Below, in pieces: positions 17,702-55,641 of a DNA stretch of 64,000 bases (position 1 is the stretch's first letter; each line of letters begins with the position of its first letter). The notes below the pieces were generated by a model that did not search any database, was not told where the DNA came from, and worked only from the letters and a program-made list of their open reading frames with translations. Origin of the DNA: Panicum virgatum (lineage: Eukaryota > Streptophyta > Magnoliopsida > Poales > Poaceae); assembly GCF_016808335.1 (NCBI RefSeq), contig NC_053148.1:18824933-18888932 (forward strand), in the 5' to 3' direction. Position numbers and translations under genes: made by a program.

Positions 17702-17725
17702 CTTGCTTGTGGCACTGTTTTTCAG

Positions 17726-21064: not shown

Positions 21065-24000
21065 ATGGTTGGATCAACTCGAGGCACCCCTAGTGCTTTT
21101 GGAGCCGGGGGGAATGGCGATCCACCTCCACCTCCTCCACCAGTGGGTATTGCTGAGGTTCTTGCCGCCCAGACGGAAATTTTGCGGCAGTTGGTTCAAG
21201 CTCAGCAACAACCGCCGGGTGGGCATCATGCTTATCAAGCACAAGAAGCGAGCTACCAAGATTTCCTCAGTACTCAGTCTCCACTGTTCACTAAAGCGGA
21301 TGAGCCTCTGGACGCGGACGCTTGGATTCGCACAATCGAGTCCAAGTTTTCTCTATTGGCTACTCCTTGTTCAGAAGCGAACAAGACTCGCTACGCCGCA
21401 CAGCAGCTTTGCGGATCAGCTCGTATGTGGTGGGATCATTACCACAGGATGCTACCGGCTGATCATGTGGTGAATTGGAATGAGTTCAAAATAGCTTTTC
21501 GGGGTCATCATATTCCAGCTGGACTTCTTGACCGTAAGCTCAACGAGTTCTTGGCCTTAACTCAGGGCACTCGTACTGTAGTGCTGTATGCCCGGGCATT
21601 CAATTAATTGTGTCAATATGCTGGACATCACGCGGATACTGACGCTAAGAAGCGTGAACACTTCAGTCGAGGCCTTAGCACCAAGTTACAAGAAAGGCTA
21701 AATCTTGTCAGTGCAAACTCTTTCAATGAATTGGTGAATATGGCTATCTCCCAGGAGGATCTTATTTTTGCACACTGCGCTGAAAAGAAGCGCAAGGCAC
21801 CTGATGTACCCTCGAGTGCCTCTGCACCGAGGTATCGCCTTGTGCAGAATAACCCACCCGCACCCTCTCAGAAGGCCCCTCAGCCAGGGCGTTGGATTAT
21901 TCGTTCTCCTCAACAGCAGCAGCAGACTCGATTCGGGCTACCTCAGCAAGCTCGATTTGCACCTCAGCAGCAGCAGATCGGCCCTAGGCCGAGTACTCAG
22001 CAAGCCGCTCGCCCTGACAACAATAACCGCTATTTCAAATGCGGGAGTCCGGATCACTTTGCCAAGATGTGCCCCCAGGCGGGACAATCTCAAGGGCAGG
22101 CTTCTCGCAGAAATGATCAGAACAAGGGCAAAAAACCAACCATTCAAGTCAGGCAGGGCCGACTCAATTTCACCAACTTGGCTGACCTTCCAGCGGGAGA
22201 ACCAATTATGTCGGGTACCTTCTCTATAAACCATCACCCCGCAGTTATCTTATTCGATTCTGGTGCATCTCATAGCTTCATTAGTTCTAAATTTGGAGCA
22301 AAAGTTGGGTTAGATTTTTGTCACACCAAAGGCTCTTACATGATATCTACTCCTAGTGGTAAAGTAGCGTCCAACCAAATGGTTAGAACAGCACCGCTTA
22401 AGTTGGGTAGTGAAACGATTTCAACCGATTTAATCCTATTACCACTAGAAGGAATTGATGTTATTCTAGGAATGGATTGGATGAAAAGACATGGGGTATT
22501 GTTAGATATCTTTTCCCGAGCCGTTGAAATAAATTCTCCAACTCATGGTCATTCGGTCCTATATTTACCTCATCACCCATGCAACAACTCTTGTGCCTAT
22601 GCCATGAAAGATATTCGCCTCGAAGATATTCCTATAGTCCATGAGTATGCAGATGTGTTTCTGGATGACTTGCCGGGTATGCCACCAGACCGAGATATCG
22701 AATTTGTTATTGAACTTCAGCCTGGTACAGCACCTATTTCAAAAAGGCCGTACCGAATGCCGCCTAAAGAATTGGCTGAACTAAAAATCCAGCTGCAAGA
22801 ACTTCTGGACAAGGGTTTTATTCGCCCAAGTGCTTCACCTTGGGGCTGTCCAGCATTGTTCGTAAAGAAGAAGGATGACAGTCTGAGGTTGTGTGTTGAC
22901 TACCGGCCTCTTCATGCGGTGACCATCAAAAATAAATATCCACTTCCCCGCATTGATGTACTATTTGATCAGTTGGCTGGAGCAAAGATCTTCTCCAAGA
23001 TTGATCTTCGATCGGGGTATCATCAAATTAAAATCAGGCCTTGCGATATTCCCAAGACCGCTTTCTCAACCAGATAAGGCCTCTATGAATATTTGGTTAT
23101 GTCTTTCGGTCTCACCAATGCTCCAGCTTATTTCATGTATCTCATGAACTCGGTATTCATGCCGGAACTCGACAAGTTTGTCGTGGTTTTTATTGATGAC
23201 ATTCTGATCTATTCCAAGAATGAGGCAGAACATGAACAACACATGTGTATTGTTCTTCAATGTCTCAGAGAGCATAAGCTGTACGCAAAATTCTCCAAGT
23301 GTGAATTCTAGCTGGACACAGTCAAATTTCTGGGTCACACTATATCCAGTGAAGGCATCTCAGTTGACTCCAGCAAAGTACAAGAAGTGATGGACTAGAA
23401 ACCTCCTACTTCAGTTCATCAGATTCGCAGTTTTCTCGGATTGGCAGGGTATTACCGCAGATTTATTCCGGACTTCTCCAGAATTGCAAAACCCATGACA
23501 GAACTACTAAGGAAGGATGTCAAGTTTAAATGGGATGCGAAGTGCGATGAAGCATTCCATACATTAAGAGCACATCTAACCACAGCACCAGTCTTGGCTC
23601 AACCTGACAACAATAAACCCTACGAGGTTTATTGTGCTGCTTCAGGTACTGGTCTTGGTTGTGTTTTAATGCAAGACAATCGGGTTATAGCATATGCTTC
23701 CCGAGCTCTTCGGCCACACGAGCTAAATTATCCCACTCATGATCTTGAGCTAGCCGCAGTTATTCATGCTCTCAAGATTTGGAAACATTATCTTATGGGC
23801 ACTCATTGCAATATCTATACCGACCATAAGAGTCTCAAATACATTTTCACCCAAAGTGAGCTGAATATGAGGCAACGAAGATGGCTGGAATTAATCAAAG
23901 ATTATGACCTGGAAGTTCATTATCATCCGGGCAAAGCTAATGTCGTAGCCAATGCGCTCAGTCGCAAGATTCACTGCAATTGCCTTTCAGTGGAGTCGTA

Positions 24001-25553
24001 TAATGACACATTGTGTGCTGAAATGCAAAAGCTGAAATTGGAAATCATTCCTCAGGGTTCTCTGACTCATATTTCTGTGGAACCAACACGGTATGACAAG
24101 GTCATCATGGCACAATTACATGACAAAAGTGTTGGTATCATCAAACAGAAAAGTATTAGAAGGTGAAAATAAATACAAGTGTTTCCGTGTGGACCATAAA
24201 GGAATCTTGTGGTTCGAGGATCGCCTAGTCGTTCCCAAAAATCATGAGTTGTGGAAACAAATCATGGACGAAGCACATCTCTCTAAATTTTCTATTCATC
24301 CGGGTAGCACCAAGATGTATCAAGATCTCAGACAAAATTTCTGGTGGACTCGCATGAAGAGAGAGATTGCCAAATATGTCGCAGAGTGTGACACATGTCA
24401 GAGAGTGAAAGCTAGTCACTTGAAAGTTGCTGGAACTCTCCAACCTCTGCCAATTCCGTCTTGGAAATTAGAAGATATCAGTATGGATTTCATCGTGGGC
24501 TTACCGAATACCTCTCAGCATCATGACTCCATTTGGGTCATTGTCGACAGGCTCACAAAGACCGCTCATTTTATTCCAAGGCATACTGAATATCGAGCCA
24601 AGAAATATGCCGAAATCTATATCGATCGAATTGTCTGTCTACATGGTGTACCCAAAACTATTATCTCGGATCGTGGTCCTCAGTTTGTGGCAACATTTTG
24701 GGAGCAGCTCCAAGAAGCTCTCGGAACTAAATTAATTCGAAGCACAGCTTACCATCCACAGACTGACGGACAGACCGAAAGGGTGAATCAAATTCTCGAG
24801 GACATGCTTCGAGCATGTGTCATCCATTATGACAAGAACTGGGACAAATGTTTATCCTTGGCTGAGTTTTCTTATAACAATAGCTATCAGGCTAGTATGA
24901 AGATGGCACCATTCGAGGCCTTGTATGGTCGACGGTGTTGAACTCCTTTGAATTGGTCTCAGACTGGACAACGTTAAATATTTGGACCCGAATTAGTGGT
25001 CGAGGCTGAGGAAAAAGTAAAAATAGTACAAGCAAATCTCCGAGCAGCTCAGTCTCGGCAAAAGAGTTATTTTGATAAAAGAAGGGATCCCTTGAAGTTC
25101 ATGGTTGGTGACCACATTTATTTACGAGTATCACCAACTCGAGGCATTCAATGCTTCGGAATCAAGGGTAAGCTAGCACCTCGCTATGTCGGGCCATATG
25201 AAATCATTAAAGAATGTGGACCCGTGGCTTATCGTCTGCGACTTCCTTCACGACTCGCAGCCATCCATGATGTTTTCCACATATCACAACTCAAGAAATG
25301 TGTCCGAGTTCCGACCGAAATTATCGATCAACAGGAAATTTTAGTGGAGCCCGATCTCTCTTATACCGAATATCCACTTAGAATTCTGGATCAAAAAGAG
25401 AGAGGTACTCGTCGAAAGGTGGTAAAAATGTATAAAATTCAGTGGTCTCATCACACTGAAGAAGAAGCCACTTGGGAGACGGAAGATTATCTTAATCGAC
25501 ATTATCCGGGTTTTCTTAGCTCCACCTCAGGTATCTCATTTTTCCCTACATAA
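21065..25553 (+). pseudogene. gag-pol: Tekay-B gag-pol with chromodomain (broken)
   Basis: A single gag-pol frame, ATG at 21065. Gag core: RMWWDHYHRMLPADHVV (about 21423-21474). Zinc knuckle [15 protein letters not shown] (about 22031-22075) has Tyr where the first Cys is expected. Protease [11 protein letters not shown] (about 22253-22285). RT with [12 protein letters not shown] and FIDDIL (about 23189-23206). RNase H reads [10 protein letters not shown], Ala for the catalytic Asp, and [10 protein letters not shown]. Integrase has [26 protein letters not shown] and QTDGQTERVNQ. Chromodomain IQWSHHTEEEATWE (about 25438-25480). Breaks: TAA 21605, TAA 23075, TAG 23309, TAG 23396, a frameshift near 24120-24170, TGA 24939 and TAA 24975. 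Not functional as it stands. Confidence 0.93.
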
Positions 25554-25588
25554 ATTCAATCATCCAATCTCGGGGCGAGATTCTTTTT

Positions 25589-25600
25589 AAGGGGGGTAGG
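25589..25600 (+). promoter_or_regulatory. Tekay-B polypurine tract
   Basis: aaggggggtagg, one base before the TG of the 3' LTR. Confidence 0.88.
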
Positions 25601-25601
25601 T

Positions 25602-28600
25602 TGTGACACCTCAGGTGTCAGTACATTTAAATACAGATCACTATACCCTTTTAAACTTAAAAGGAAAATGTGGGAAATTAAGTCAAAGAGGAGAGGTCAA
25701 ATAAAAGTCAAAGTATATAAGAGGAATTAAAGGAGAAAGAAAAAGGAGTGAAAAGCTACTCAAATTTCAATTAAAAAATGTGCACAAAATTTTGGTTGCT
25801 CATGAGAGGTACTTCAATTGACATGTGCTCAATTGAACTTCAGCCAAAAACCAACCAAAAATTGAATAAAACCAAAGCCCTTTTGTGCAAGATTGAAAAT
25901 TTACCAATAGTTCAAAATGTGAGTTTCAAATGAAAATTTGCACAACACAAAAGTTGTAGATATTAAATAGTTATGCAAAATTGGTATTCAACACTTTTTC
26001 ATTTGAGCCCTCTAAGAAGGAGATATTTATAGTTTACCGAGAGGTCCCTGAATTTTCAGAAATCACAAACAAGCCCTCACCTCCATCTCTCTCCTCTCGG
26101 CTGTTCTGTTTCGCCCGCCGCCCGCCGTACGCCGCCAGTGGACCTCGTCCATGGCGCGTCCGCAGCCAAGTGGACCCAGGGGAGCGCTCCAGTGCCACCT
26201 GGCCTGCCCCTTGGCACCTCCCCACGCTAACACGCGTCCGTGGCGTCCTCCCGAGCCGCCACGCCACCCCGCCATGCGCAGCGCCGCCTACTCACTCCGC
26301 CTGCTCGTCGTCGAGTCGCCTAGGACCAAATCAACCTCCCCCAGACGCCACTCCCCTCGTCCAGTTGCTCTCCGGGCTATAAGTGGCCCCAGAGCCCCGC
26401 CGTCGCGCGACTTCCCCTTCTTCTCCCTCCTTCCACCGTCCGCCATGGCCGGCGAGATCTAGCTCACGCGGACCGGCCACCACAGCCCCGCATTGCTCCA
26501 TCCAACCACCCCAGCATCTTTGCCACACCCCAGTTAAGCTCCACGCGCACGGAATCAAACCCAAACCTATTCCCGTCGCCGTTCCCCTTCCGCGCCGCCG
26601 CCGGCGAGCTCGGGCTCACCGCGGACTGGCCCACCCAGAGGGAGACCGTGCACGAAAGCTACCCCAGGAGCTTCCTCATGCTCTCGCAATGCTCATGCGC
26701 GCGACGTTCCTCTACGTCGAGCCCTCCTTCGCCTACAACGCCGGCGACCCGAACTTCACCTCCGCCATTGACGCCGACGAGCTTGCTTCCGGTCACCGTG
26801 CACTCGAACGCCGACCTGGGTAGGTGTTCCTCGACCTCCTCTCTCTCACGCGCCTCCCCGTTGCAGCCCCGGTAAGCCCTGCCTAGCAGAACACCACCAG
26901 CAAGATGCAACAGCGGAGAAGGCCGGCGAAGGACCTGGTTGTAATTTTTTTTTGCTCAAGGGTGTGTTTGCAAGATTTCCAGTGTTTGTCAGTGAATTTC
27001 TAAAATGCTAAAAAAATCACAGAAAAATCGTAAAAATGCAAACTCAACGGATCTGGAATCCTTGTAACAAGGTCTACAAATTTTGTAACAGTGAAGTCTG
27101 CAGAAACTCTACCAAATTTAATCTATGAAAAAGAATAAGAAAATCAACCCATGCATGTTCAGGAAGTTCCACTCAACAAACGACCTTGATTTTTGAATAT
27201 GTTATCACTGATGGAATATTAAGCTCACAGTAAAAAGATGCCACCCAACCAAAATAGTTATCATGACGGAACAATCAAGATTCTCTAATCTATTGTTGAC
27301 ATTCAAGATTTAATACTGGAAAACATATACCTAACCTTGCTCTGGAATTTCTACTACATGCATGTGTAACTGAAACCTTGTTAATCCATAAATTTCAGAT
27401 TTATTAGAGCTCAGTTGCTATATATCATGTGTAATGCTTGTTCAATCAACTTAATTCATCATATATAGTTTTTATGCTCAGAAAAATCTATATTTATTTC
27501 TAAAGTCTCACTTTCATTCTGTGATCCTGCCTGAAAAATTTGAGCTACAGTTACTGAGTTTTGCTTTAGTTAAAAATCATGCTTAGCATCTCATGGTTAG
27601 ATTTACCATTTTTGTTCTGAGTAAAATAGGCCGTATCTGATCAAGATTTTTGGACATATTCTTAGTTAGATTTTATTCTCGCTATAATAAAAATTTCACA
27701 TGCAGTAATGATCAAATGAACTTTGAAAAATTTATGCTAACTCATGAAAAGTTAACTACATAACTAATTTATCTTGATGATATAAAGCTTGATAATTTTT
27801 GTGGAATATGTTTAGCTTATGTCTAGGCTCTGGTAAAAATTTGAGGACCATATTCCTAGTGTAACTCTCTGTAGAATTAATCTTAGTAATGGCTTGCTAA
27901 AATTGTTCATTTTGTCACCTCTGTTGTATAAGTGAATAAAATCTGGAAAAATTACATTACTGAGTAGATGCTTTATAGATGCTCCCATAAAATTTGTAGT
28001 ACCAGAACCCATGTCAAACGTTCTGTGCAAAAAGGTGAAGTAACTAGAGTAATCTACTTACATGTTTTGTTATGGTTAATTGCTTTATGGTTAGATGCTG
28101 AAATTTATGCCATAGATGCTAGAGTATCTGATCTGTGCTACTTTAATTTTTCATCAATAGATCATGAGTATATTTGTTGTTATGAAATAGGGAAAGCATG
28201 CTATGTTTTAATGATAAAATGAAAACCAAAACCCACACTCATTCATGAAGAAGCATAGTTATGTTTACTACTCCATAAATGACTGCCCATGAAAGGAAAT
28301 ATTGAGATCATCACTGAATTAACTTTTGTTGAACTACAACTTTATCGTGAAGGAAAGAATTCGTTATCCATGAGTAACTCATAAATCTTGCATTGCATAT
28401 AGAAGCGGTTAATCTTGCTGACAGAGAATACGAGCTGGTGCCCGCGGACTCTCGTGTTGATCAGGAAGTTAATTTGAACTGTGATAACTTATCTCAAGAC
28501 CTGGGCCAAGCTCCAGAGGTTTTTCTACCTGACAGTGCCCAAGAAGGCAAGCCCCGGTGCATAATGCCTTTATTTTCCGAGTTATTATTCATCTATCTAT

Positions 28601-29991
28601 TTATAATGTGTTGTAATAATTTTATTTCTGCATTTAAGTTTTCTAGGCGTTGATCGAAAACCTTAGATGCATGATCCCTAGGTACCTATGTTTGATATCC
28701 GGATCTTTTTATCGACTAGTTGCCAAGCTAATTAAGTACGGTAGAAGCCGAGGGGTTTCCTGCCTCTCGCGAGCAAATAGGAATTTTACTGACTTTAATT
28801 CCTGCTGAAATATAAGGACAACGGGCGGGGTTGTGTAGTTGTGATACCCCGCTGTTGTAGTCAAAAATGGATAAGGTCGCGGTGTGTGGCTCATTTCGTT
28901 AAGCGTTTGAAAGTACTAGCTACATGCCGAGAAATATGGTAATCGGTAAGCTTAAGTACCTGATTGGACCGGTGAGTGGAACGACCATTCACCCTCTTGG
29001 TAGAAGTAGGTTTTATTTTTGTCCGGACGTACGGGTGTAGAGTGGTCGGACTCTGTAGTCGGGGAGGGTGACCCAGATCCACAGACTGGAAAGAAAGGGG
29101 AAAAGTTGCGTGGGTGAAAGAGGCGTCGATCCCCATGTGTGTGTGTTAGGTTCCCCTGGCCAGGTTGAAATTTGATTCAGAATCGTCCGCCTCTCACGGC
29201 ATGAGATTGCTTAAAGTTTTCGGTCACATAGAGTAACAAGTGGAACAAATGTTGATAATACTGCTGTATGATTAAATGTATGCTCTACCATGCTTGAGTA
29301 GAGTTAGTTGCAAACTTAGACTGATTAACTCCCACTAGAAAATGGCTAAGTAAAACCTGAAAGTAAGGACCAACTCTTAGTAGCATTTTTGGCAAAACAA
29401 ACCCCACCAACCAAAAAAGCCTTGCATGTCTAGTTATCGGACTATGTTATATCCGGTGATGGGTAAGTCTTGCTGAGTATTAGTATACTCAGCCGCTTGT
29501 GGCACTGTTTTTCAGGTACTAACTTCGAAGATCTGTTTGCAAGTCTTACTTGGCCGTGTACCTTGCCTCCGGGCTGGTCTGTTGAGTGGGATGGCCCTTC
29601 AGCTGGTGCTGACCACCCTCCCGCTGAGTGACGCTTTTCGTATGGGCTTTATCGATGCATCACACTTATCGCTAGTAGTCATTTACTCATTCCGCTGAAA
29701 TAATGAGACTTGAATAATTTGTGTAGTTCGGAATTCTATAGTACTTTGCTACTCTGAACATGGTTTGCAATAAATTTTCCTTTCCGCTGCAAACTTTGAG
29801 TTGTATGAGATGATCTGTGTTGTAATCTCTGGGCTCACCTTCGTGTGAGTGTTGTCTGCTGATCCTGGAATAGCGTGGCTTTTATCGAGGCTTCACTCGA
29901 GGAACTATCGGTGAGTGCCAAGTTGGGTCAGAGTTGCTTAGCAACAAAGATCAGTGCACCCGGGCCCAGTAGTTTGGGTGGTTCCGCCACA
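25602..29991 (+). repeat. Tekay-B 3' LTR (4390 bp)
   Basis: TGTGACACCT to TTCCGCCACA. TATA at 26378-26385, block B 28403-28546 (open), hairpin 29472-29493 and block C 29516-29631 (open). This copy therefore has both mini-gene blocks free of stops. A GC-rich reading frame over the leader (to 26823) is open here but stopped twice in the 5' LTR. Confidence 0.92.
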
Positions 29992-29996
29992 CACCC

Positions 29997-32715
29997 CGCC
30001 CCCGCAGCCACCACCGCAACCCTAGCACCGCCACCACCCCGCTCTGTCGCGCAGAGGCACTGCGCCACCGCAGGCACGCTGCTCCGCCACACCCCAGCCC
30101 CACCGGAGTTGCGCAGCAGCCTCACCTTGACTCCAGGAAGCCTCCCGAGCACCTTGCCTCGACCATAGCCCACGCAAATGACGGAATCGCACCGGACTTC
30201 ATCTCAGGTTAGATCGGTCCGCTGCCGCAATTCCTCACCGTCGGCCATCTCCGAGCCTCCCTGACCCCCGTGGCACCATCGTAGGACCACCTTGATCCGA
30301 ACTGTGGAGCCCAGAAGCCGGAGCACCCCTGCAGCAGCTTCCTCCGCGAGCGCCGTGTCGCCCTCACCGCCGGTCAGCGTCACCGACCCCCCTGTACGCC
30401 AAATCATCCTGACCTGAGCCCTCGGTAAGCTCCAGCCCATTTCCCCGGTCCTTTTGGCGCGAGAACTTGTAGGTCGTAACCCCTGGAGCCCTTAGAACAT
30501 CGCACGCCGGCGGGCGCCGCCGCGCAGATCCGCCCCCTTCGCCGCACACGCTGTTCCGAGCCCCGAGCCGCCTCCTTGTTGCCTCCAGTGGATCACGCAT
30601 GGCGTGAGGAGCATCCCCGACCCATGCCCGCTCCATTTTGACCCCGGGAAGGCCGAGTTCCGCCAACTCCGGCGAAGCCCTACCGCGGAACACTTGTTCC
30701 GGCGAGCCGCGCCGCCGCCCGCGCGCCCAAGCAACCCTGGCCGCCCGATCCCGCATGGACAACCCAGATTAGATCGTGCCCCGTTTAGATCTGAGCTGCC
30801 ATATCTGAATCCGATGGCCCAGATTAGAAGATACCCCTTCGCCCTGGCATTTTTGCTAAAGAGCCCCTGACTTTTTAGGGAATCAACCCGCGTTCCTTCT
30901 TAGTTCAAAAGAATTTCCAGAAAGGCCCAGTTTTTAACGTTTAGACCCCTGTGGTTTTCCCTTTATAAACCCACCGTCCAGCCCCTATGTTTTTATGCGT
31001 TGACCCCCAGATCTATCCTTTAATTACGTATAGGTCCCTGGTTTTTGCGCAGAAACCCCTAGAAACTCTGTTTTCTTACAGTTTAGCCCCTAGATCTTAT
31101 TTTAAGCCTAGATTTCGCGTTCTAGATCCGTTTTAGGTGTTCTTTATGTCCACGCGATCGTTGTAACGCGTAGAATAGTCTTAGCTTAGTTTTGTTTGCT
31201 TTTTTTATGTATTGTTGTACTATTTCTTAGTGTTTTCTCTTGTTTGCATGTATGTGTATGTGCTGGACTTTTTTTGGCATTGCGATCGTGAGTAGACGTT
31301 GATCCTTCGGAGGAGTACCAGTACCCGGAGCAGCCACCATCTTCAGAGCAGATTGAGTAGCAGGAGAACTTTGAGGAAGGCAAGTATAACATGAACACCA
31401 CCTATCACTTTTAAACACATTCTCATACTGCATTTTAATATTGTATGCCTATAAGGATTTTCCAAGACACTTTATATCCTTTATATATATCCCTTGGGTT
31501 GCATTTTGGTTAGTTGTGCTAGGTGCCGTGCTATAACACACTTGGTCCTTTTTAATTAATTTGATTAATAGTATATGCAACTTAATTTTGAGAGTGTCCC
31601 TCTGTGTTCTGTGCTTGAGTGGCTCACGTCTCGTTAAAATTGGTTTTTCTAGAAACATGGTTTAGGGGGCCAGCACGGTGCTTAGTGCTTGGTTGGCCAC
31701 TCTCCCTAAGGACTGGTTCATAGAGCGACAACCTGGGACAACAGCGCTACCACAAGACTGGAATGGGATGGTCTTGGCTTACTAATTAGGTCTTTTTGGT
31801 TTGGAGTAACTTACCTGCGGGGCAAGGGTGGTAAGCTTCTATGGCCCTCGTGCTGAGTGGCCTCGTCTGTGCTTTGTGTCTTGATGCCCACTAGACCTGC
31901 TCCATCGTCGCCGATCAAACCCTCGCGGCTACTCCTTACCAACGAGATTCTTTGTAACGGCCTCGTAGTGAGTTTGCTAGTCATCTCACCTACGGAAGTG
32001 TGATGAAAAACTAGCCTAGCTCACGACTTGTGGGTAAAGATGTGCAACCTCTGCAGAGTGTAAAACTGGTATACTAGCCGTGCTCACGGTCATGAGCGGC
32101 CCAGATCCTCCTTTTGATTAGTGGGGTTATCTTCCTTTGATTAGGAGGGTTCCCCGGGTGGTTTGGTTCTCAGTAGTTCATAATTAATTTTGATTAATTT
32201 CTATGTAACTGGGTTTATGGTAATTCATCCACTTGTAGTAATTAGCTTTAATAAAATTTTGCCAAGATTAAAAGCTAATGTAGTTGAGTCAGCCAACCTT
32301 AGAGCCTCAGAGTTTGTGTTATACTTGTTGAGTACAAGTTGTGTACTCACTCTTGCCTACTGTACTCTTTTCCTCTTGTTCTCTTTGGGGACACCCTACT
32401 GCTGCTCAGTTCCCGGCGACGCGGAGGAGTTCACCCAGAGCTACCAGGAGTACAAGGACTTCTAGGCTGTCGTCTCCCAGTCGACGTCACTGTGGCGCCC
32501 AGCTTCCGAGTTTCGTACTTGTTTTACGCTTCCGCATACTTTGTATCAGACATTTTGTCATTAATGTAATAAATAACATTCATACTCGCTTTATTATATC
32601 TTTTTACGTGATATGTGCTGTGATATACTATTCATTCTATTGTATATACGTGTGACTTGATCCTGGCATGTATATGATTGCTCGTTTTATGTCCTTTTGT
32701 AAACCGGGTGTTACA
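29997..32715 (+). repeat. LARD-A 3' LTR, right segment
   Basis: Continues the LTR broken at 13833 and ends GGGTGTTACA, followed by the tgctg duplication. It contains block B (31296-31379, stopped by TAG at 31358), a hairpin (32329-32349) and block C (32410-32465, open, ending EFTQSYQEYKDF). Confidence 0.9.
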
Positions 32716-32720
32716 TGCTG

Positions 32721-39988: not shown

Positions 39989-42212
39989 TGTGACACCCTA
40001 GCTGTCTGCACATTAGTGTTGCGTACCTTTTATACATCATGTGCTTGTTTTGCTTGAAAAAGGACCTTTTTGTAATTATAAAAGGTTATATGTGTAATAT
40101 TGATTTTATGCAAGGGTCTTTCTATAGTTTAATTTGAATTGAATGTGTGATTATAGCTTTTGTCGAGGGTGTTTTTGCAAAATGTGGTGTAATCATTACA
40201 TGGCAGGAAACTTTTCAAATCAGCCTAAATTTGAAGTGAAATTGTATTGAATTTGACAAAATTCCTGGAATTCAAAATCCCTCTTATGTTTTCAAATTTA
40301 GCTCTTGAATCTTTGATCAAATAAATTTTTACACAACATCAAAGTTGTAGATCTTGAAAAGATGAACAACTTTCCTGTTGGGCACTTTTTCATTTGAGCC
40401 CGATTTTAAAAGTTATCTCTGCTTTACAGTTTGGTCCCTGGAATTTTCAGAAATTGCAAAATAGCCCTTTTCCCCTTCCTCCTGCTCCTTCCTCTGTTTT
40501 CCCCGTCGCCGCTATGCAGAGCGCCGCCCGCCCGCCGTGGAGAGCTGCCTCCCCGCGCCACCTCCTGCCTGCTAGCCCACGCGTCGCGCGTGAGCTCCCC
40601 ACCGCCCTCCTTCGCTCGCGCTGGTGCTCCCCTGCCGTGCCACGCGCCCCCGCCGAGCCCAGAGCAGCCCGCGCGGTCGCCACCTCGCCGTCGCCGTGGC
40701 CCGGCCAAGGCAGAGGCTGCCGCCTTCTCCTAGCGCGCGCATGGGCACTACTTAAACTCCAGATAGCTATTCCGTTCGCCCTTTCGCTTGCTCCGCTTTC
40801 CCATGCCACAGAACGCACCGCCGCTCCACCCAGAACGCCGGCGAGCTTGACGCCGCCGTCGACCCGCCTCTCCGCAGCTTCCTCGCCCACGCTGACCACT
40901 CCAGCAGTTGCGCCTCGACCTCGCGCAACTCCCAGACCACATCCCCTCGCCCAATCCTCACCGGAGCGTCACCACTACCGTTCTCCTCTGCCGCCGACCC
41001 ACCCTGCTACGTCGCGCCGCCGCTACAGCCCACCCCCACCCCAATACCGGGCATCTAGAGGTGCGCACGGGTGCGGTGAACCTCCCACACCCCTCTACCC
41101 TCGCCGCCGGTGACCCCCCTCGCCAGGAAACGGCCGGTCAAACCCCGCCCCCCCCCCCCCCTCGGACCCGGCCCAGGGACCTCGGGTTGGAAGAAACAAA
41201 ACCCCAGGGGGTTATTTGAATAGCCATAGACTCATTTGAATAGTGCTCTAAGGACTTCTTTGTAATTTCTAGCTGCAAACTTTGAAATTCAGTAGAAATT
41301 CGTATGAAATTCGTAAAATAGCAAATCTTGATGTTCTGGAATCATTGTGTAAAGCTCTATGCAGTAGAATCATAATATGTTAGGCTTTTGTTGAAAGTGT
41401 TTGCTGTACAAGTTAATTTGTGTCACTAGGTACATAAAGACTAGATGTTTATCTTTTTTCTTAACTAATGATTGATGCCTTGTTGTGCAATGAAATTTGT
41501 ATGGTAGTTTGTTCTTGTAACACTAGTGTTTCTATAAAAATTTCGTGCCCAGTTCTCTTGTGTAGCTATTTATTTAATTTAATCCATGTTTAGTAGACTT
41601 TAATTATGATAAATAGTTTATGCGAATGATAAATCATGAAAATATTTCTGAGTGACATCTTTGAACAATTTAGCTTGTAAATAAAGTTTGAGCCTCAGTT
41701 AATGAGTACAACAGGAGCTAAAAATGAATCTTGCTAATCTGATGTCTGTTTTGTTTATTTTCTCAGAATTGTTTGTGTCTAGATAAAATCATGAAAAATT
41801 CACAGTAGCTAACTAATTTCCGTGTCGACCTCCTGTTAAATTGTGAGCTTCTTATTTGCTTCAGTTTGACCTGTATAATTCAAGCTTGTTCTAGGTGTTG
41901 TCTAAATGAATGAATAGTTGTGATTTAATGGATACGTGTTTTGGCATGAATTTTACAGGGTAGCCTACTCTTTTCATGTTCTGATTAGGGTATTTTTTGC
42001 TAAATTTATTACTATTTGTGCTCTGAGTCGTTAATTTATTAGCAAACCTTGAATTAATTGCTATAGGAATCAACCACCACTTACTTTATGAAGTTAGTTT
42101 AGCTTTCTTGTGCTGTTGATCATGATGCCTTGTGTAGTTAGATTTGTTATTTAACTACTCTATAAACGATTGCCTATGTGTGTTTATAATACTGTTCTTG
42201 CATTGCATATAG

Positions 42213-42365
42213 ATACGACTGCTTTGTCGGACGGGACGTACGAGCTGATCCCGGATTCCGAAGGAGGTGATCTCGAAGCTCAAGCGAACACCGCCGTACT
42301 AACTGAAGCCCCGGACCAAAGTTCAAAAGAGCCTAGAGCTGAAATAGTTAGCGACTACCAAGAAG
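42213..42365 (+). CDS. LTR mini-gene block B, Tekay-C 5' LTR (putative exon)
   Basis: One hundred fifty-three nt between GCATTGCATATAG| and GAAG|GCAAGC, open, phase 1 on both sides. Motifs SDGTYELIPDSEGGD and DYQE. The 3' copy (53447-53599) has TAC to TAA at 53473-53475. An in-frame ATG exists 37 nt upstream at 42176, inside the presumed intron, so initiation there is possible but not shared with Tekay-B. Confidence 0.5.
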
Positions 42366-43263
42366 GCAAGCCCCGGACATAACCTATATTTCAAATTATT
42401 ATCATTTACTGTTATTATTTGCTTATGCATTTACAGTTCTTAGGATTTGAATTGAAACCCTAGATGCATGATCCTAGGAACCTATGTACTGAACACTAGA
42501 CTTGAGTTCGACTACTTGCTAAGCTTATAGGACCGGTAAAAGTCGAGTGATTGCCTGTCACTCGCGAGTTTTATAGGAATTATTTCTTTACCTTTCTGTT
42601 ATCAATATAAGGACGACAGACGGGGTTGTGTTCGATATCATGACTTTATGTGAGACCCCGTTTGTGTTGATGAACTTGCTAAGGTCGCGGAGTGTGGTAG
42701 CGGTGGTTAAGTTTTTGAAAGTACTAGCCACATTCCGTAAATATGGTACGCGGCAAGCCTAGTAGCCGATTGGACCGGGGAGTGGATATACCTCCCACTC
42801 TCTCTTAGGGATAGGTTTTATTTTTATGTTGCGCAACACTACGACTTCGAGGGACAAGGTTCGGCCTTGGAGCCCTGTAGTTGGGGAGAGTGGCACTATC
42901 CACAAGCCGGAAAGAAAGGTAAACGGTTGTTTGGGAACGACCCGACGGTGTTCCAGACATGTGTGTTAGGTTTGCCTGGCCAGGTTAAGAAATTCGATTC
43001 GAATCGTTTGCTTCTCACAGTTTGGGACTGCTTAATCCCTTTGCCACACAGAGTAATAAAGGCAACATTATGATATTCAATTTTGATGTTTGGGTAGTAG
43101 TTGCTTACATAGAATAGTTAATCAACTAGAATCTTGAAAGCTAAAACTTGAAAGTAAGGACCTACTCTTTATTGCTTTTCAGCAAAAGGAAAACCAGAGC
43201 CTCACAAAACCTTGCATAGTCTAGCTAAAGTGGGCTACGTATACCCGTTGACGGTTAAGTCTT

Positions 43264-43285
43264 GCTGAGTATTAGAATACTCAGC
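43264..43285 (+). other. Conserved LTR hairpin before block C, Tekay-C
   Basis: GCTGAGTAT-TAGA-ATACTCAGC, 24 nt before the block C border, the same spacing as in the Tekay-B 5' LTR. Confidence 0.7.
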
Positions 43286-43309
43286 CTTGCTGTTGAAACC
43301 CTTTTTCAG

Positions 43310-43419
43310 GTATGAGTTTTGAGGAGCAAATCGCTAGCTTGACCTATCCTTGCTCATTGCCTCTTGGCTGGTCCGTAGAGTGGGATACGTCTTCGACCGG
43401 CTATGACTATGACGAGTGA
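43310..43419 (+). CDS. LTR mini-gene block C, Tekay-C 5' LTR (putative terminal exon)
   Basis: After CCCTTTTTCAG|; two bases, 35 codons and TGA. Reads MSFEEQIASLTYPCS, then GWSVEWDTSSTGYDYDE. Open in both LTRs (second copy 54565-54674). Homologous to the Tekay-B block with S-L-T-[WY], C-[TS]-L-P and GWSVEWD conserved, although surrounding LTR sequence is divergent. It begins in the phase left by block B, and the ATG two bases in could also serve as an independent start. Confidence 0.52.
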
Positions 43420-43788
43420 TACCATGCTTGGACTAGCCTGGTATACTTTTGCGACGTGTTGTAGCCGTCGTGTTTTATCTTCCGCTGTCTAAACTCTGAA
43501 CTTATAGTTATGGCTTGTATAACTATTTTACTTAAGTTGGCTTTGTAATAATAGTTTGAACTGGTTTGTAATCATTATTATGCCTGTGTTGTAAAATTGT
43601 GGTTGTAATATCTCTGGACTCGCCTTTATGCGGGGTATGCTTGTTCGATCCGAGAACCGGTGGTTGTATCGGGACGTTACCCGACAGACCAAGGATTGTT
43701 CCGTTTGAAGTGCGTTTGAGCCGGTGTTGCCTTTATGGTGATGGCCTGCGCACTTGAGTCGGGATAATTCAGGTGGTTCTGCCACAGC

Positions 43789-44055: not shown

Positions 44056-44332
44056 GTAAGATGGTAAGGATCCTCCATCAGCTGAGGGAGTCTGACCTTC
44101 CCGTCGGTGATGCGAGCCGAACGCTGCCCTCAAGCAGTGGCTTACTTGAGGTGCTCCCAATATACCAACGATTAGTTGACTATATTGGAAGTAAAGTGTA
44201 CTCAATCAGCTGAGGGAGTCTGACCTTCCCATCGGCGATGCGAACCGAACGCTGAGCTCAAGCAGTGGCCTACTTGAGCTGCTGCCAATATATCGATCTC
44301 GATTGACTATATTGGGAGTAAAGGAACTTGTG
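44056..44332 (+). promoter_or_regulatory. Tekay-C leader: donor-like site and duplicated hairpin block
   Basis: TTGAG|GTAAGA at 44055/44056 is a strong 5' splice-site match. It is followed by two tandem copies (128-bp period, starting 44077 and 44205) of the block seen once in Tekay-B. The hairpins are 44128-44151 (CCTCAAG/CTTGAGG) and 44255-44280 (AGCTCAAG/CTTGAGCT). The closing pair changes from C-G to G-C between copies, which keeps the stem. Confidence 0.55.
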
Positions 44333-44532: not shown

Positions 44533-45120
44533 CTGTCAATCTTCTGCAGGTATACTAACCGCGATTCGATAAGTTAAGAATGGTTAGAATATATCGACTA
44601 GCTATATAGGGAGAGCCGTATTTATGTATGCCACCGTGCTAACCACGTTAGCCCAATGATAGTTGGCAATTGTTTATCTTGTGAGGAACGATCAGGACGT
44701 GCATGCATATTTGGTTGATGTTCGAATTGATTCCTAGTATTTGAAGTTGTTACATAAGCTTTGTAAGGAATTTCTAGTATGAATCGTCATAGAAAAGTGT
44801 TAGTGTGCTTAAGCCATAAGTGAGTTAAATTTTGATTTTAGGAGCATGCTTGTTTAAATGCTTAGACTTTCTTGGATGAAAAAGATGGTTTTGAGTCATG
44901 CCTTCATCCTAAGCCCCCTCTTGTTGTTATAAGGATCTTTTCATTCCTTAGAATCTCAAATGATGAACCAGTACCGATTGTGGTTTATTATTCTCTGAGT
45001 TTGGAACCATATCATCTTTTGAATTAGAATCACATTTGCTTTACCGTAGTCTTCTTAAAGCTTTATTTGAGAAGTCTTGAGATAATCGTATTACTCACAT
45101 TTGAATCCTTTTTCATTCAG

Positions 45121-46023
45121 ATGGCGGCTTGTCCACAGATCTTTTGGGATGAGGAGGGAAATGCTCATACCGACTGTCTGTACTGGGAGGGTTTTCCGAG
45201 GATTCTTTGGGATTCACTTCGTATCTTCCACTACCCAGATCCACCCCAGTACACGGGACGCCAGTTTTCTGAGGATGGAATTCAGAAGAACAAAGTTACA
45301 ATGACCATTCCTCAGCACCCTACCTTGGAGTGGCCACCGATTGAGATTGAGGTGATTGGGTACCGTCTTGTTGATGCTTTTGAGACAGCAGTTCTCAAAG
45401 GTATCACTACTTTTTGTGAGCACCATCCAGAGGAGGTAGCTGCGTACCCTATTGGTTTGTTTCCAGCCGTCAGTGCTGGCGGTGTAGAGTGGCAGTTCAG
45501 GATCACACACTTCGGGCACTTAGTTGGAGATGTAGCGGATGAGACTATTCATGCTGAGACCAAATATATGAATGCTCAGTCTCACTACCAGATACTCCAG
45601 CAGCGACACATGGACCAGGTGATAGACTTGGCCCAGAGTTTTCAGCGAGGTCTTCGTTTGAGGGATATTCAGATTCAGGGACTTCAGGATGCCGTTGCTG
45701 GGAGGGATCAGGCCATTGCACAGTTTGAGCATCAGGCTTTGGAGCATGGTGCTGAGATAGTGCAGCGTGATACAGTGATCGGTTTTCTTCAGGGGTAGGT
45801 GAATGAGCTTCAAGCAGATTGGGCTGATGCTTTAGCCCATATTGGTGCGCTCCAGGAGCAACTAGATGCTCCAGCTGAGCCTGCAGAAGCAGATGAGGAC
45901 CCCGAGGAGGTTGAGGGAGTTTCTGATTTAGATTCAGAGCACGCACTTGCTGAGCCTAACCCTTAGCCGGATGACTCTTCTTCCGGCAGTGCCTCTTTTG
46001 TGGGCAACCTCGACGACTTCTAG
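45121..46023 (+). pseudogene. Tekay-C accessory frame (ORFx) upstream of gag
   Basis: ATG at 45121 directly follows CCTTTTTCATTCAG. The frame runs 225 codons to TAG (45796-45798). It then stays coding-like to TAG at 45964 and to a final TAG at 46021, 300 codons in total, one more than Tekay-B. The N-terminal region has CLYWEGFPRILWDSL, MTIPQHPTLEWPPIE and ITTFCEHHPEE. From about residue 160 it is rich in Gln, Glu, Leu and His with heptad-like spacing (coiled coil by eye), ending acidic (SDLDSEHALAEPNP). No enzyme motif, signal peptide or membrane segment seen. A conserved N-terminal fold plus coiled coil could suit an RNA- or Gag-binding helper; that is inference. Confidence 0.75.
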
Positions 46024-49600: not shown

Positions 49601-51241
49601 ATGGAGCCATTCAATGAAACTCTATGCCAGGAAATGATGAAGTTAAACCTAGAAATGGTACCTCAAGGAAGTTTGAACCATATATCTATTGAGCCTACAC
49701 TTCATGATAGCATCATCATGGCACAATTACATGATGAGGGTATCAAAATCATCAAGGAAAAGTTATCCAAGGTGAAGCAAAGTACAAATGTTTTCGTGTG
49801 GATCATAGAGGAATTTTATGGTTTGAATCTCGACTTGTTGTACCCAAGAATCATCAGCTTAGAAAACAAATCCTTGATGAAGCACATCTATCGAAGTTTT
49901 CGATTCATCCCGGTAGTACCAAGATGTATCAAGATCTTAAACAAGATTTCCGGTGGACTCGAAAACAAGATTTCTGGTGGACTCGAATGAAAAGAGAGAT
50001 CGCCAGATATGTTTCTGAGTGTGATGTCTATCAAAGAGTTAAGGCTAGTCACTTGAAAGTAGCTGGTACTCTCCAACCTTTACCCATTCCATCTTGGAAA
50101 TGGGAGGACATCAGTATGGATTTTATTGTCGGTTTACCCAATACTTCTCAGAAGCATGATTCTATTTGGGTAATCGTTGATAGACTCACCAAGACCGCTC
50201 ATTTAATTCTAGTGCATACAACTTATTCTGCCAAGAGGTATGCAGAGATTTATCTCGATCAAATTGTTCGTTTGCATGGAGTTCCAAAGACGATCATTTC
50301 TGATCGTGGGGCTCAGTTTATTGCACGTTTCTGGGAGCAATTGCAAGAATCCCTTGGAACAAAATTGATTCGTAGTTCAGCTTATCATCCACAAACAGAT
50401 GGGCAAACTGAACGAATCAATCAAATCCTTGAAGACATGTTGAGGGCATGTGCTATTCAATATGGCAAGAACTGGGATAAGTGCCTAGCACTAGCTGAAT
50501 TCTCTTACAATAACAGTTATCAATCCAGCTTGCAAATGGCACCATTTGAAGTGTTATACGGTCGAAGGTGTCGAACTCCTTTGAGTTGGTCACAAGCTGG
50601 AGAACGCAAAATCTTTGGGCCAGATTTAGTCTATGAGGCAGAGGAGAAAGTCAAAGTTGTCCAGACTAATCTTAAGGCAGCCCAATCAAGACAGAAAAGT
50701 TATGCAGACAAAAGAAGAGATCCTTTACAATTCAAGGTAGGGGATTTCGTATATTTGCGAGTATCTCCTACTAGAGGTGTTCAACGCTTCGGTATCAAAG
50801 GGAAATTAGCACCCGATACATCGGACCATTTGAAATCATTGAAACTTGTGGACCTGTTGCCTATCGACTTCGTCTTCCTTCTCAGTTGGCCGCCATTCAT
50901 AATGTCTTCCATGTATCACAACTCCGGAAGTGCATCACGGTACCTACTAAGATCCTTGAACCACAAGATATCGAGATGAATCCGATCTATCTTATACGGA
51001 GTATCCAATCAAGATTCTTGACACCAAAGAAAGAAGTACTAGAAGGGAGAAAGTTAAAATGTACAAGATTCAGTGGAATCATCATACCGAGGAAGAAGCT
51101 ACTTGGGAGACTGAAAATTTTCTCCAAAGAAACTTTCCTGACTTTCTTAGAACAAATTCAGGTATCAAATCTTTCCATTCCTTTTCTTCCTGTAATCTCG
51201 GGGCGAGATTCCTTTTAGGGGGGAAGGCTGTGACACCCTAG
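46666..51241 (+). pseudogene. gag-pol: Tekay-C gag-pol with chromodomain (broken)
   Basis: ATG at 46666. Gag core: RIWWDHYCEMQPAEHVI. A poly-Gln stretch is encoded at about 47550-47580. Zinc knuckle CFNCGSTSHFAKNCP is intact (about 47635-47680). Protease reads FDSSATHSF, Ser where Gly is expected. Frameshift at 48298 (run of C), TGA at 48515. RT has FIDDIL (about 48800). RNase H is [10 protein letters not shown], but [10 protein letters not shown] has Asn for the catalytic Asp. A frameshift lies near 49770. Integrase contains a 24-bp in-frame duplication (49941-49988), CDVYQRVK (second Cys of HHCC lost), SDRGAQF and QTDGQTERINQ. Another frameshift near 50812. Chromodomain IQWNHHTEEEATWE (about 51067-51108). 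The last frame runs 13 bases into the 3' LTR. Confidence 0.93.
51217..51227 (+). promoter_or_regulatory. Tekay-C polypurine tract
   Basis: aggggggaagg, one base before TGTGACACCC. Confidence 0.85.
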
Positions 51242-54200
51242 GTGTCTGCACATTAGTGTTGCATACCTTTTATACATCATGTGCTTGTGTTTGCTTGAAA
51301 AAGGACCTTTTTGTAATTATAAAAGGTCATATGTGTAATATTGATTTTATGCAAGGGTCTTTCTATAGTTTAATTTGAATTGAATGTGTGATTATAGCTT
51401 TTGTGGAGGGTGTTTTTGCAAAATGTGGTGTAATCATTACATGGCAGGAAACTTTTCAAATCAGCCTAAATTTGAAGTGAAATTGTATTGAATTTGACAA
51501 AATTCCTGGAATTCAAAATCCCTCTTATGTTTTCAAATTTAGCTCTTGAATCTTTGATCAAATAAATTTTTACACAACATCAAAGTTGTAGATCTTGAAA
51601 AGTTGAACAACTTTCATGTTGGGCACTTTTTCATTTGAGCCCGATTTTAAAAGTTATCTCTGCTTTACAGTTTGGTCCCTGGAATTTTCAGAAATTGCAA
51701 AATAGCCCTTTTCCCCTTCCTCCTACTCCTTCCTCTGTTTTCCCCGTCGCCGCTGTGCAGAGCGCCGCCCGCCCGCCGTGGAGAGCTGCCTCCCCGCGCC
51801 ACCTCCTTCCTGCTAGCCCACGCGTCGCGCCTGAGCTCCCCACCGCCCTCCTTTGCTCTCGCTGGTGCTCCCCTGCCATGCCACGCGCCCCCGCTGAGCC
51901 CAGAGCAGCCCGCGCGGTCGCCACCTCGCCGTCGCCGTGGCCCGGCCAAGGCAGAGGCTGCAGCCTTCTCCTAGCGCGCGCACGGGCACTACTTAAACTC
52001 CAGAAAGCTATTCCATTCGCCCTTTCGCTTGCTCCGCTTTCCCACGCCACAGAACGCGCCGCCGCAACACCCAGAACGCCGGCGAGCTTGACGCCGCCAT
52101 CGACCCGTCTCTCCGCAGCTTCCTCGCCCACGCTGACCACTCCAGCAGTTGCGCCTCGACCTCGCGCAACTCCCAGACCACTTCCCCTCACCCAATCCTC
52201 ACCGGAGCGCCGCCTCCGCCGTTCTCCTCCGCCGCCGACCCGCCCTGCTACGTTGCGCCGCCGCTACAGCCCACCCCGACCCCAATACCGGGCATCTAGA
52301 GGTGCGCACGGGTGCGGTGAACCTCCCACACCCATCTACCCTCGCCGCCGGGACCCCCCTCGCCAGGAAACGGCCGGTCAAACCCTGCGCCCCCCTCTGA
52401 CCCGGCCCAGGGACCTCGGGTTGGAAGAAACAACACCCCAGGGGGTTATTTGAATAGCCATAGACTCATTTGAATAGTGCTCTAAGGACTTCTTTGTAAT
52501 TTCTAACTGCAAACTTTGAAATTCAGTAGAAATTCGTAGGAAATTCGTAAAATAGAAAATCTTGATGTTCTGGAATCCTTGTGTAAAGATCTATGCAGTA
52601 GAATTATAATATGTTAGGCTTTTGTTGAAAGTTTTTGCTGTACAAGTTAATTTATGTCACTAGGTACATAAAGACTAGATGTTTTATCTTTTTCTTAACT
52701 AATTATTGAAGCCTTGTTGTGTAGTGAAATTTTTATGGTAGTTTGTTCTTGTGACACTAGTGTTGCTATAAAACTTTCGTGCCCAGTTCTCTTGTGTAAC
52801 TATTTATTTGATTTAATCCATATTTAGTAGACTTTAATTATGACAAATAGTTTATGCTAATGATAAATCATGAAAATATTTTTGAGTGATATTTTTTAAT
52901 AGTTTAGCTTGTAAATAAAGTTTGAGCCTCAGTTAATGAATAGAAGAGGAGCTAACAATGAATCTTGCTAATCTGATGTCTGTTTTGTTTATTTTCTCAG
53001 AATTGTTTCTCTCTAGATAAAATCATGAAAAATTTACAGTAGGTAACTCATTTCTGTGTCGACCACCTGTTAAATTTTGAGCTTCTACTTTGCTATAGTT
53101 TAACCTATATAATTCAAACTTTTTCTAGGTGTTGTCTGAATGAATGAATTGTTGTGATTTAATGGCTACGTGTTATGGCATAAATTTTACAGGGTAGCCT
53201 ACTCTGTTCATGTTCTGTTTAGGGTAATTTTTTCTAAATTTATTACTGTTTGTGCTCTGAGTCGTTAATTTATTAGCAAACCTTGAATTAATTGCTATAG
53301 GAATCAACCACCACTTACTTTATGAAGTTAGTATAGCTTTCTTGTGCTGTTGATCATGATGCCTTGTGTAGTTAGATTTGTTATTTAACTACTCTATAAA
53401 CAATTGCCCATGTGTGTTTATAATACTGTTCTTGCATTGCATATAGATACGACTGCTTTGTCGAATGGGACGTAAGAGCTGATCCCGGATTCCGAAGGAG
53501 GTGATCTCGAAGCTCAAGCGAACACCGCCGTACTAACTGAAGCCCCGGACCAAATTTTGGAAGAGCCTAGAGCTGAAATAGTTAGCGACTACCGAGAAGG
53601 CAAGCCCCGGACATAACATATATTTCAAATTATTATCATTTACTATTATTATTTGATTATGCATTTACAGTTCTTAGAATTTGAATTGAAACCCTAGATG
53701 CATGATCCTATGAACCTATGTACTGAACACTAGACTTGAGTTCGACTACTTGCTAAGCTTATAGGACCGGTAAAAGTCGAGTGATTGCCTGTCACTCGCG
53801 AGTTTTATAGGAATTATTTCTTTACCTTTCTGTTATCAATATAAGGATGACAGACGGGGTTGTGTTCGATATCATGACATTATGTGAGACCCCGTCTGTG
53901 TTGATGAACTTGCTAAGGTCGCGGAGTGTGGTAGCGGTGGTTACGTTTTTGAAAGTACTAGCCACATGCCGTAAATATGGTACGCGGCAAGCCTAGTAGC
54001 CGATTGGACCGGGGTGTGGATATAGCTCCCACTCTCTCTTAGGGATAGGTTTTATTTTTATGTTGCGCAACACTACGACTTCGAGGGACAAGGTTCGGCC
54101 TTGGAGCCCTGTAGTTGGGGAGAGTGGCACTATCCACAAGCCGGAAAGAAAGGTAAACGGTTGTTTGGGAACGACCCGACGGTGTTCCAGACGTGTGTGT

Positions 54201-55041
54201 TAGGTTTGCCTGGCCAGGTTAAGAAATTCGATTTGAATCGTCTGCTTTTCACAGTTTGGGACTGCTTGATCCCTTTGCCACACAGAGTAATAAAGGCAAC
54301 ATTATGATATTCAATTTTGATGTTTGCTTAAAGATCTACCATGATTGGGTAGTAGTTGCTTACATAGAATGGTTAATCAACTAGAATCTTGAAAGATAAA
54401 ACTTGAAAGTAAGGACCTACTCTTTATTGCTTTTCAGCAAAAGGAAAACCAGAGCCTCACAAAACCTTGCATAGTCTAGCTAAAGTGGGCTACGTATACC
54501 CGTTGATGGTTAAGTCTTGCTGAGTATTAGAATACTCAGCCTTGTTGTTGAAACTCTTTTTCAGGTATGAGTTTTGAGGAGCAAATCGCTAGCTTGACCT
54601 ATCCTTGCTCGTTGCCTCCTGGCTGGTCCGTAGAGTGGGATACGTCTTCGACCGGCTATGACTATGACGAGTGATACCATGCTTGGACTAGCCTGGTATA
54701 CTTTTGCGACGTGTTGTAGCCGTCGTGTTTTATCTTCCGCTGTCTAAACTCTGAACTTATAGTTATGGCTTGTATAACTGTTTTACTTAAGTTGGCTTTG
54801 TAATAATAGTTTGAACTGGTTTGTAATCATTATTATGCCTGTGTTGTAAAATTGTGGTTGTAATATCTCTGGACTCGCCTTCGTGCGGGGTATGCTTGTT
54901 CGATCCGAGAACCGGTGGTTGTATCGGGACGTTACCCGACAGACCAAGGATTGTTCCGTTTGAAGTGCGTTTGAGCCAGTGTTGCCTTTATGGTGATGGC
55001 CTGTGCACTTGAGCCGGGATAATTCAGGTGGTTCTGCCACA
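51229..55041 (+). repeat. Tekay-C 3' LTR (3813 bp)
   Basis: Very similar to the 5' LTR. Block B 53447-53599 (stopped at 53473), hairpin 54519-54540 and block C 54565-54674 (open). Ends GCCACA, then aagag. Confidence 0.92.
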
Positions 55042-55046
55042 AAGAG

Positions 55047-55336: not shown

Positions 55337-55385
55337 GAGTGTTAAAATGTACCAATTCGTGTACAAATAACAGAGCGAAACACGT

Positions 55386-55641
55386 GTTGAGAAAAGTTGT
55401 TTCTTCTTCTTCACCTGATCTTTTCTTCTAGAGACCCCTGACCCTAGCTAACTTGGGTCGGGCGTCCCTCGGGGGCTGCAGGGGTTGTACCCCACCTCCG
55501 TGTCTAATTACGCGTTGAGAAAAGTTGTTTCTTCTTCTTCACCTGATCTTTTCTTCTAGTGACCCCCGACCCTAGCTAACTTGGGTCGGGCGTCCCTTGG
55601 GGGCTGCAGGGGTTGTACCCCACCTCCGTGTCTAATTTTTT
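55386..55641. repeat. Tat 3' region tandem repeat, 2 x 128 bp
   Basis: gttgagaaaagttgtttctt begins at 55386 and again at 55514, and the following sequence is nearly identical (cttgggtcgggcgtccct, gggggctgcaggggttg). Lies just after the pol stop, in non-coding sequence. Confidence 0.9.

Follow-up and report, generated by a model that had tools for sequence, protein, structure and literature searches.

The window analyzed here, a 64,000-nt stretch of Panicum virgatum NC_053148.1, contains LTR retrotransposons of families A, B, and C, which we presume to belong to the Tekay clade, a label taken over by name alone from an initial annotation of this DNA. The family B element has its 5' LTR at 13834 to 18203 (B5), followed by a PBS-like site at 18204, and its 3' LTR at 25604 to 29993 (B3); the family C element has its 5' LTR at 39989 to 43788 (C5), with a PBS-like site at 43789, and its 3' LTR at 51230 to 55043 (C3), all on the plus strand. 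The internal regions of both elements code for gag, protease, reverse transcriptase, and an integrase with a C-terminal chromodomain, which is followed by a purine-rich tract and then by the LTR. Both elements are decayed, their long frame being split into several ORFs. In a Pfam scan that covered six proteins and left out the family C integrase, the chromodomain at the C terminus of the integrase, upstream of the polypurine tract, matched PF00385 with an E value of 2e-5 (24.7 bits, at a cutoff of 25.1), and pol relatives such as P0140 (83% identity) have PF00385. As for family A, copy A1 is the 3' part of an element with pol, the LTR of which extends from about 2858 to 6236, and a second, pol-less element holds copies A2 and A3.

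The layout of the window has some further features. The second family A element seems to have received element B (13834 to 29993) within its 3' LTR, which is thereby split into two parts (12852 to 13833 and 29994 to 32717). At 8553 to 8870 and 12853 to 13170, the LTR of this pol-less element opens with a piece coding for integrase and chromodomain and with a purine-rich tract, after which TGTAACACCC marks the start of a Tekay-A type LTR; this LTR has apparently expanded to the left, across the pol end. Elements B and C each carry a further ORF located after the 5' LTR and ahead of gag (19486 to 19998 and 45028 to 45795, respectively) with similar wording (IPQH...W and TTFC..HP), and the one in element C is without a Pfam match. 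Short tandem duplications with units of ~126 nt and 128 nt are found at 44073 to 44323, downstream of the PBS of element C, and at 55382 to 55637. An Rfam scan of the whole window gave no match at the gathering score.

The blocks under study lie in the 5' LTR of family C and consist of block B (42213 to 42365; 153 nt, open) and block C (43310 to 43419; open up to its own stop). The 3' LTR of the same element holds block B at 53447 to 53599, with one in-frame stop, and an open block C at 54565 to 54674. In family B, block B measures 144 nt in the 5' LTR (16611 to 16754) as well as in the 3' LTR (28403 to 28546), where it is open, and block C is located at 17726 to 17841, with one earlier in-frame stop, and at 29516 to 29631; the two blocks of the 3' LTR are those that we propose below as exons of pol, the second of them being the last and carrying the stop. 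In family A, block B is found at 4783 to 4875 (93 nt) and block C at 5921 to 5976 in A1, with coding unsupported for either of them. All of these blocks are on the plus strand; a second family A copy of block B spans 84 nt (10845-10928).

The initial annotation had placed block B at these coordinates, with lengths of 93/84, 144, and 153 nt and an AG border upstream, and had assigned phases such that block B ends with one spare base and block C begins with two; both statements proved accurate. It had further described GAAG|GCAAG at the end of block B, and this sequence is present in all seven LTR copies, with no further occurrence in the window. For block C, the starts after an AG at 43310, 17726, and 5921 and the closing stop were recovered; early in-frame stops interrupt block C in A2 and B5. 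Counting the in-frame stops in block B of A3 and C3, four of the seven copies are broken, leaving A1, B3, and C5 with an open frame. Poly(A)-like hexamers follow 68 to 138 nt beyond the regular block C stop in all six copies scanned, a count that allowed variants and had no control; in B3, the hexamer is an AATAAA at 29769, 138 nt beyond the stop.

Tests for coding in blocks B and C

The likeness of the blocks between families B and C, which had been noted by eye, lies above chance, since tblastn between LTR copies, run with the low-complexity filter off, yielded E values of 8e-16 (block C) and 7e-10 (block B). In the same comparison, GC-rich stretches upstream of the blocks also match between the two families (E=3e-12), which presumably reflects composition. 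Pairs within family B or family C have too few differences to be informative. In the first 32 codons of block C (which has 37 in B3 and 35 in C5), these two copies differ at 7, 7, and 22 sites in codon positions 1, 2, and 3, respectively, with a pS of 0.913 and a pN of 0.223. This pair shares 20 identical residues, with 11.7 expected, and none of 2,000 randomisations, in which the same substitutions were placed at random, did as well; the comparison of B3 with C3 gave 21 identical residues, with 12.3 expected, and again 0 of 2,000. A sliding test with 60-nt ungapped segments, which covered both strands of the last 2 kb of the LTR, starting ~400 nt before block B, returned block C in exactly its frame as the top 17 of 636 tests (z of 4.6). 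The reverse strand of the block C stretch reached a z of 3.2, with a stop, the best start elsewhere reached 2.65 and contains stops, and in the stretch between the blocks (intron 2, see below) no frame stood out. Judging from these alignments, block C is very probably coding in families B and C.

Block B by itself displayed no significant purifying selection, neither over the 47 codons aligned (P=0.16) nor over the first 15 (P=0.13), and the case for its being coding comes from its position, its open frame, and its copies in the database. In family A, the coding test for block C was not significant in any of three pairs with 16 to 17 codons each (P=0.36, 0.07, and 1.0), and the pol of A1 ends without a GT. 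The three families for which a split gene had been suggested are thus reduced to two, B and C.

To these comparisons within the window, database copies can be added. A protein search with blocks B and C of C5 resulted in 758 matches, the best 120 of which were examined. Three of these 120, P0001 to P0003, contain block B with in-frame internal duplications and were left out for that reason when the block B border was anchored, which succeeded in 117 of 117 for P0004 to P0120. Among these matches listed, [ILV]D stands across the block B border in 116 of the 117, a pair that (N)TA-G|A can encode. Upstream of the border, the residues are variable in sequence and length in the 117 matches listed, while those from the border on are nearly constant, a constancy that is partly selected, given that the exon part served as the query, with the variable flank unaffected by this. 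A second search, with the joined family B protein, gave 17 matches out of 87 candidates, five with block B and 12 with block C, all of them unspliced. Further variants of block C, among them P0132, P0134, and P0137, retain FED..A(S/G)LT(W/Y)PCTLPPGWSVEW. The usual stop of block C is read as W in 11 of the 12 block C matches and as R in the remaining one, suggesting that the source annotations translated TGA as Trp. Among 257 database proteins from these searches, there is none in which block B continues into block C, or pol into one of the blocks, although plant transcripts may be scarce in the collection, and no further DNA copies were found in the viral_contigs or genome_contigs collections. 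The tail that the two blocks would encode gave no Pfam domain above the cutoff, and a WW/MBD-like identity of "LPPGW" was dropped as it was without Pfam support.

A candidate donor at the end of pol and a conserved putative intron 2

In families B and C, the end of pol carries a candidate splice donor. The C-terminal part of pol in family B, comprising the integrase SH3-like domain (PF24626, E=3e-24) and the chromodomain, occupies an open frame at 24978 to 25530 on the plus strand, with TCAG|GTATCT as the proposed exon end, and the protein reads ...YPGFLSSTS before G|GTATCTC (25530|25531). In family C, the pol end with the chromodomain (50960 to 51161, plus strand; frame broken further upstream) has TCAG|GTATCA as the proposed exon end, and the protein reads ...FPDFLRTNS before G|GTATCAA (51161|51162). 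TCAG|GTATC is therefore found at the same aligned place in both pol genes and leaves one spare base, where block B begins with two, a phase fit that by itself has a chance of 1 in 3. The frames, the selection on block C, and the conservation and phase of this donor are directly visible in the DNA. Scored with a donor matrix, it takes second place among the 125 GT pairs that align between the gag-pol regions of B and C and falls into the top 1.0% (B) and 2.8% (C) of the 3,588 GTs on the plus strand of the window. Both pol donors match weakly at +5, where they carry C, and another GT within pol (24163/49772) outscores them.

Without splicing, the family B pol stops 7 codons past the donor, at 25551, before the LTR, and the family C pol stops 26 codons past it, three codons inside the LTR and far before block B. 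From borders and phase, an intron 1 would extend from 25531 to 28402 in family B, containing the polypurine tract, the start of the LTR, U3, and the promoter, and from 51162 to 53446 in family C, both on the plus strand. In family A, the pol of A1 ends in ...PDLFASQPS and a stop, with no GT there. Both blocks and the GC donor persist in this family even so, and the blocks could therefore have a different role in it.

A profile built from the two joined proteins served to collect relatives of pol in a third search; it gave 6,267 matches among 7,999 scored, and the best 120 were examined. The anchor motif was present in 116 of the 120 relatives listed, of which 39 read past the donor place, 60 terminate precisely at it, and 17 fall short of it. 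Among the 39 listed relatives that read on, 33 feature [GS][ITM] at the donor codons, as [GA]GT-A(T/C)N can give, and six are without this pair, while at other offsets from 8 to 19 it is found in at most 16 of the 39. An NNA codon is possible at the preceding residue in all 33 relatives with the pair; the four columns before the donor codons, and those after them, vary more among the 39 listed, and the query of the search had no G or S at the donor place. Such a pattern is expected from a kept [GA]GT-A(T/C) together with an end of coding. Of the 60 listed relatives that end exactly at the donor place, only 8 end with G or S plus T. That 77 relatives end at or before this place, some of these ends being perhaps contig edges, suggests that many related families may be without such a tail or may have lost it.

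The proposed intron 2, which separates blocks B and C, has GC-AG borders and lies on the plus strand at 28547 to 29515 in the 3' LTR of family B and at 42366 to 43309 and 53600 to 54564 in the 5' and 3' LTRs of family C. Its length is 971 and 969 nt in the two B copies, 944 and 965 nt in the two C copies, and 1,045 nt in A1. The initial annotation described the LTR sequence around the blocks as largely unalignable by eye, a view not borne out by the alignment of B3 with C5, in which intron 2 is 70.1% identical over 903 ungapped columns, above block C (63.6%) and block B (54.9%). The corresponding identities are 52.5% after the stop and, for the LTR part of intron 1, 56.2% before a TATA-like box and 46.7% after it, making intron 2 the most conserved of the six LTR segments compared between B and C. 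Because synonymous sites differ far more (pS of 0.91 in block C and 0.77 at the chromodomain end), intron 2 seems to be constrained for its own sake.

Intron 2 also seems to be structured. Folded as a single sequence, intron 2 has a z of −2.8 in C5 and −1.9 in B3, with 0 of 20 shuffles as good in each case, and a control stretch of intron 1 has a z of +0.5, with 14 of 20 shuffles as good. The consensus fold energy of intron 2, which draws on two families, is below that of all 60 column shuffles, although these are a lenient control and the z is inflated because column shuffles break dinucleotides; the covariation, consisting of 23 double changes and reached by 4 of the 60 shuffles, is weak by itself. 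In families B and C, a hairpin with 9 to 10 paired bases is located ~25 to 46 nt before the block C acceptor; in C5, it lies at 43264 to 43285 on the plus strand, with perfect arms of 10 nt. Family A has a similar inverted repeat, which is absent from the best fold of the two stretches tested, and these fold no better than shuffles. Intron 2 could conceivably act at the RNA level, in export, in packaging, or in the control of splicing. Its donor is GC in all seven copies, though one common change would give GT. GC-AG introns are reported to make up <1% of introns, and plant GC-AG sites to be conserved in 9,830 aligned sequences versus 13,045 with GT-AG (PMC7072748), so that the retention of GC is not in itself rare. 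It is tempting to speculate that this splice is kept weak on purpose.

Alternative readings and a proposed spliced integrase tail

The exon that precedes block B is what separates the possible readings. In the initial annotation, the blocks were taken for an independent, spliced small gene with its AUG exon in the same LTR. This would agree with a TATA-like box in the 5' LTR of family B (TATAAG, 14583 to 14588 on the plus strand; a consensus match only), with the GC-rich and then AT-rich stretch upstream of block B, with the unfiltered tblastn match of the GC-rich stretches between B and C (E=3e-12), and with the poly(A)-like hexamers downstream. However, a scan of six LTR copies (B5, B3, C5, C3, A1, and A2) for exons with an AUG start and an in-phase donor of score at least 2 gave short peptides only, one of which, with 22 residues, is common to B5 and B3 and absent from C5, C3, A1, and A2. 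The lack of an upstream AUG exon in the LTR, conceded from the outset as the weak point of that annotation, was thus reproduced, and since families B and C share no such exon, we reject a separate LTR gene and regard it as very unlikely. Alternatively, the blocks could be coding with their upstream exon elsewhere in the internal region, either in the leader ORF before gag or at the start of gag, and be spliced in the manner of an accessory gene. The coding signal of block C, the extra ORF in both elements (19486-19998 and 45028-45795), and the absence of an AUG exon in the LTR common to B and C are all compatible with this arrangement, but the donor at the end of pol, in phase and among the two best of the 125 aligned GT pairs, argues against it, and we consider it unlikely.

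Translation is dispensed with altogether if the blocks are exons of a spliced, untranslated 5' leader, in which case the LTR architecture would serve RNA handling and the frames would be by-products. That intron 2 is the most conserved of the six LTR segments and folds better than shuffles, that block B is without a selection signal, and that family A keeps blocks and GC donor in the absence of a pol donor would all fit such a leader. The third-position pattern and the high pS of block C are nonetheless hard to explain without translation, which leaves this reading decidedly unlikely. Finally, the common ancestry of two LTR families might by chance or artefact preserve a frame without function, as could be argued from a clear signal in two families only and from four of seven broken copies; against it stand the 0 of 2,000 randomisations for block C and the motif retained by the database variants P0132, P0134, and P0137, and we consider it highly improbable.

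We find it reasonably probable, from the sequence comparisons, that pol in families B and C ends with two exons in the 3' LTR, namely blocks B and C. Reading the blocks as C-terminal exons of pol is preferable to a separate gene because the conserved phase-1 donor at the pol end fits block B in both families. What remains of the initial proposal is an LTR-encoded, probably spliced acidic protein with a GC-AG intron in families B and C, for which selection on block C and the conservation of the splice sites speak; for family A, it is not supported.

For this pol tail, we infer the following course. A pre-mRNA beginning in the 5' LTR would end at the poly(A) site of the 3' LTR. The donor right after the chromodomain (25530| in B and 51161| in C) would be spliced to the block B acceptor of the 3' LTR. 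The GC-AG intron of 0.94 to 0.97 kb would then be removed, joining block C, and the product would be an integrase in which the chromodomain is followed by an acidic tail of 86 to 87 residues that ends in the constrained motif FE(D/E)..ASLT(W/Y)PC(T/S)LP.GWSVEWD. The unspliced RNA would retain the polypurine tract and U3 and act as the genome, its pol being the short form. Because splicing would take out the polypurine tract along with U3 and promoter of the 3' LTR, the spliced RNA could be translated and could not be copied into a full element, and the splice at the end of pol would thereby separate messenger RNA from genome RNA. The tail might perhaps bring the integrase into contact with chromatin or direct it to targets, as an analogy with the CR motif encoded in CRM LTRs would suggest. 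More tentatively, and as a possibility that we put forward with some reserve, this group of chromoviruses may draw the 3' exons of integrase from its own 3' LTR, with a deliberately weak splice (GC-AG and structured) deciding the fate of each RNA: if spliced, it would serve translation only and yield the long integrase with the conserved acidic tail; if retained, it would serve as the genome. As the exons of the tail lie between promoter and poly(A) signal, they would on this view be kept in every LTR copy, solo LTRs included.

The long LTRs of plant chromoviruses are usually taken as noncoding. If the tail is real, the annotation of integrase in these elements ends too early, and the length of the LTR would be partly explained by the needs of coding and splicing. 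The split of one retrotransposon RNA between translation and reverse transcription would then also become directly testable by counting the two junctions. Adjoining the chromodomain, the tail would be a natural candidate for a part in the choice of insertion sites.

Comparison with known systems

A retroviral coding sequence in the LTR that is reached by splicing exists in MMTV, where sag is a separate gene with its own AUG. Compared by description, sag and the tail proposed here are alike in being LTR coding sequence reached by splicing and differ in that sag is a gene of its own. In the open-licence literature, at the level of titles and the openings of abstracts, no spliced, LTR-encoded pol tail was described.

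The closest parallels are other chromoviruses. In group A of the CRM clade, the polyprotein extends into the 3' LTR as a single frame, the LTR part of which carries the CR motif (PMC3059260). Families B and C resemble this group, as far as the available part of its description goes, in that a chromovirus would have the C terminus of its integrase inside the 3' LTR, with a possible role in targeting (PMC3059260). In contrast to CRM, the chromodomain ends here before the polypurine tract, and the LTR part would be reached by two splices; a continuous pol frame of the CRM type running into the LTR tail was found in neither family B nor family C, and the available part of the CRM account mentions no intron or splicing (PMC3059260). 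Outside CRM, some gag-pol ORFs of the Bingo chromoviruses of beet extend into the 3' LTR, and the proposed tail is like these in that pol runs into the LTR, which for Bingo is described, in the part of the report at hand, without splicing (PMC3605345).

Splicing as a means of dividing the roles of RNA has its own precedents, here compared from the excerpts available. Ogre elements have an intron between GAG-PROT and RT, and their partly spliced RNA, existing in two forms with different polyproteins, is similar to what we propose (PMC6317226, PMC12786077). The Ogre intron, however, is inside the polyprotein region, whereas that of families B and C would lie between pol and the LTR exons. In BARE, translation and genome RNA are kept apart via distinct RNA pools (PMC3735527), and in Ogre and EVADE, RNA roles are divided by partial splicing (PMC6317226, PMC12786077). 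Our model shares with BARE1 and EVADE that the RNA for translation is set apart from the RNA that serves as genome, partly by splicing (PMC3735527, PMC12786077); it departs from both in that theirs is a gag-only RNA, while the splice proposed here would lengthen the integrase and remove the polypurine tract and U3. The new part would be the reach into the LTR via two introns, combined with a chromodomain that is already complete upstream of the polypurine tract.
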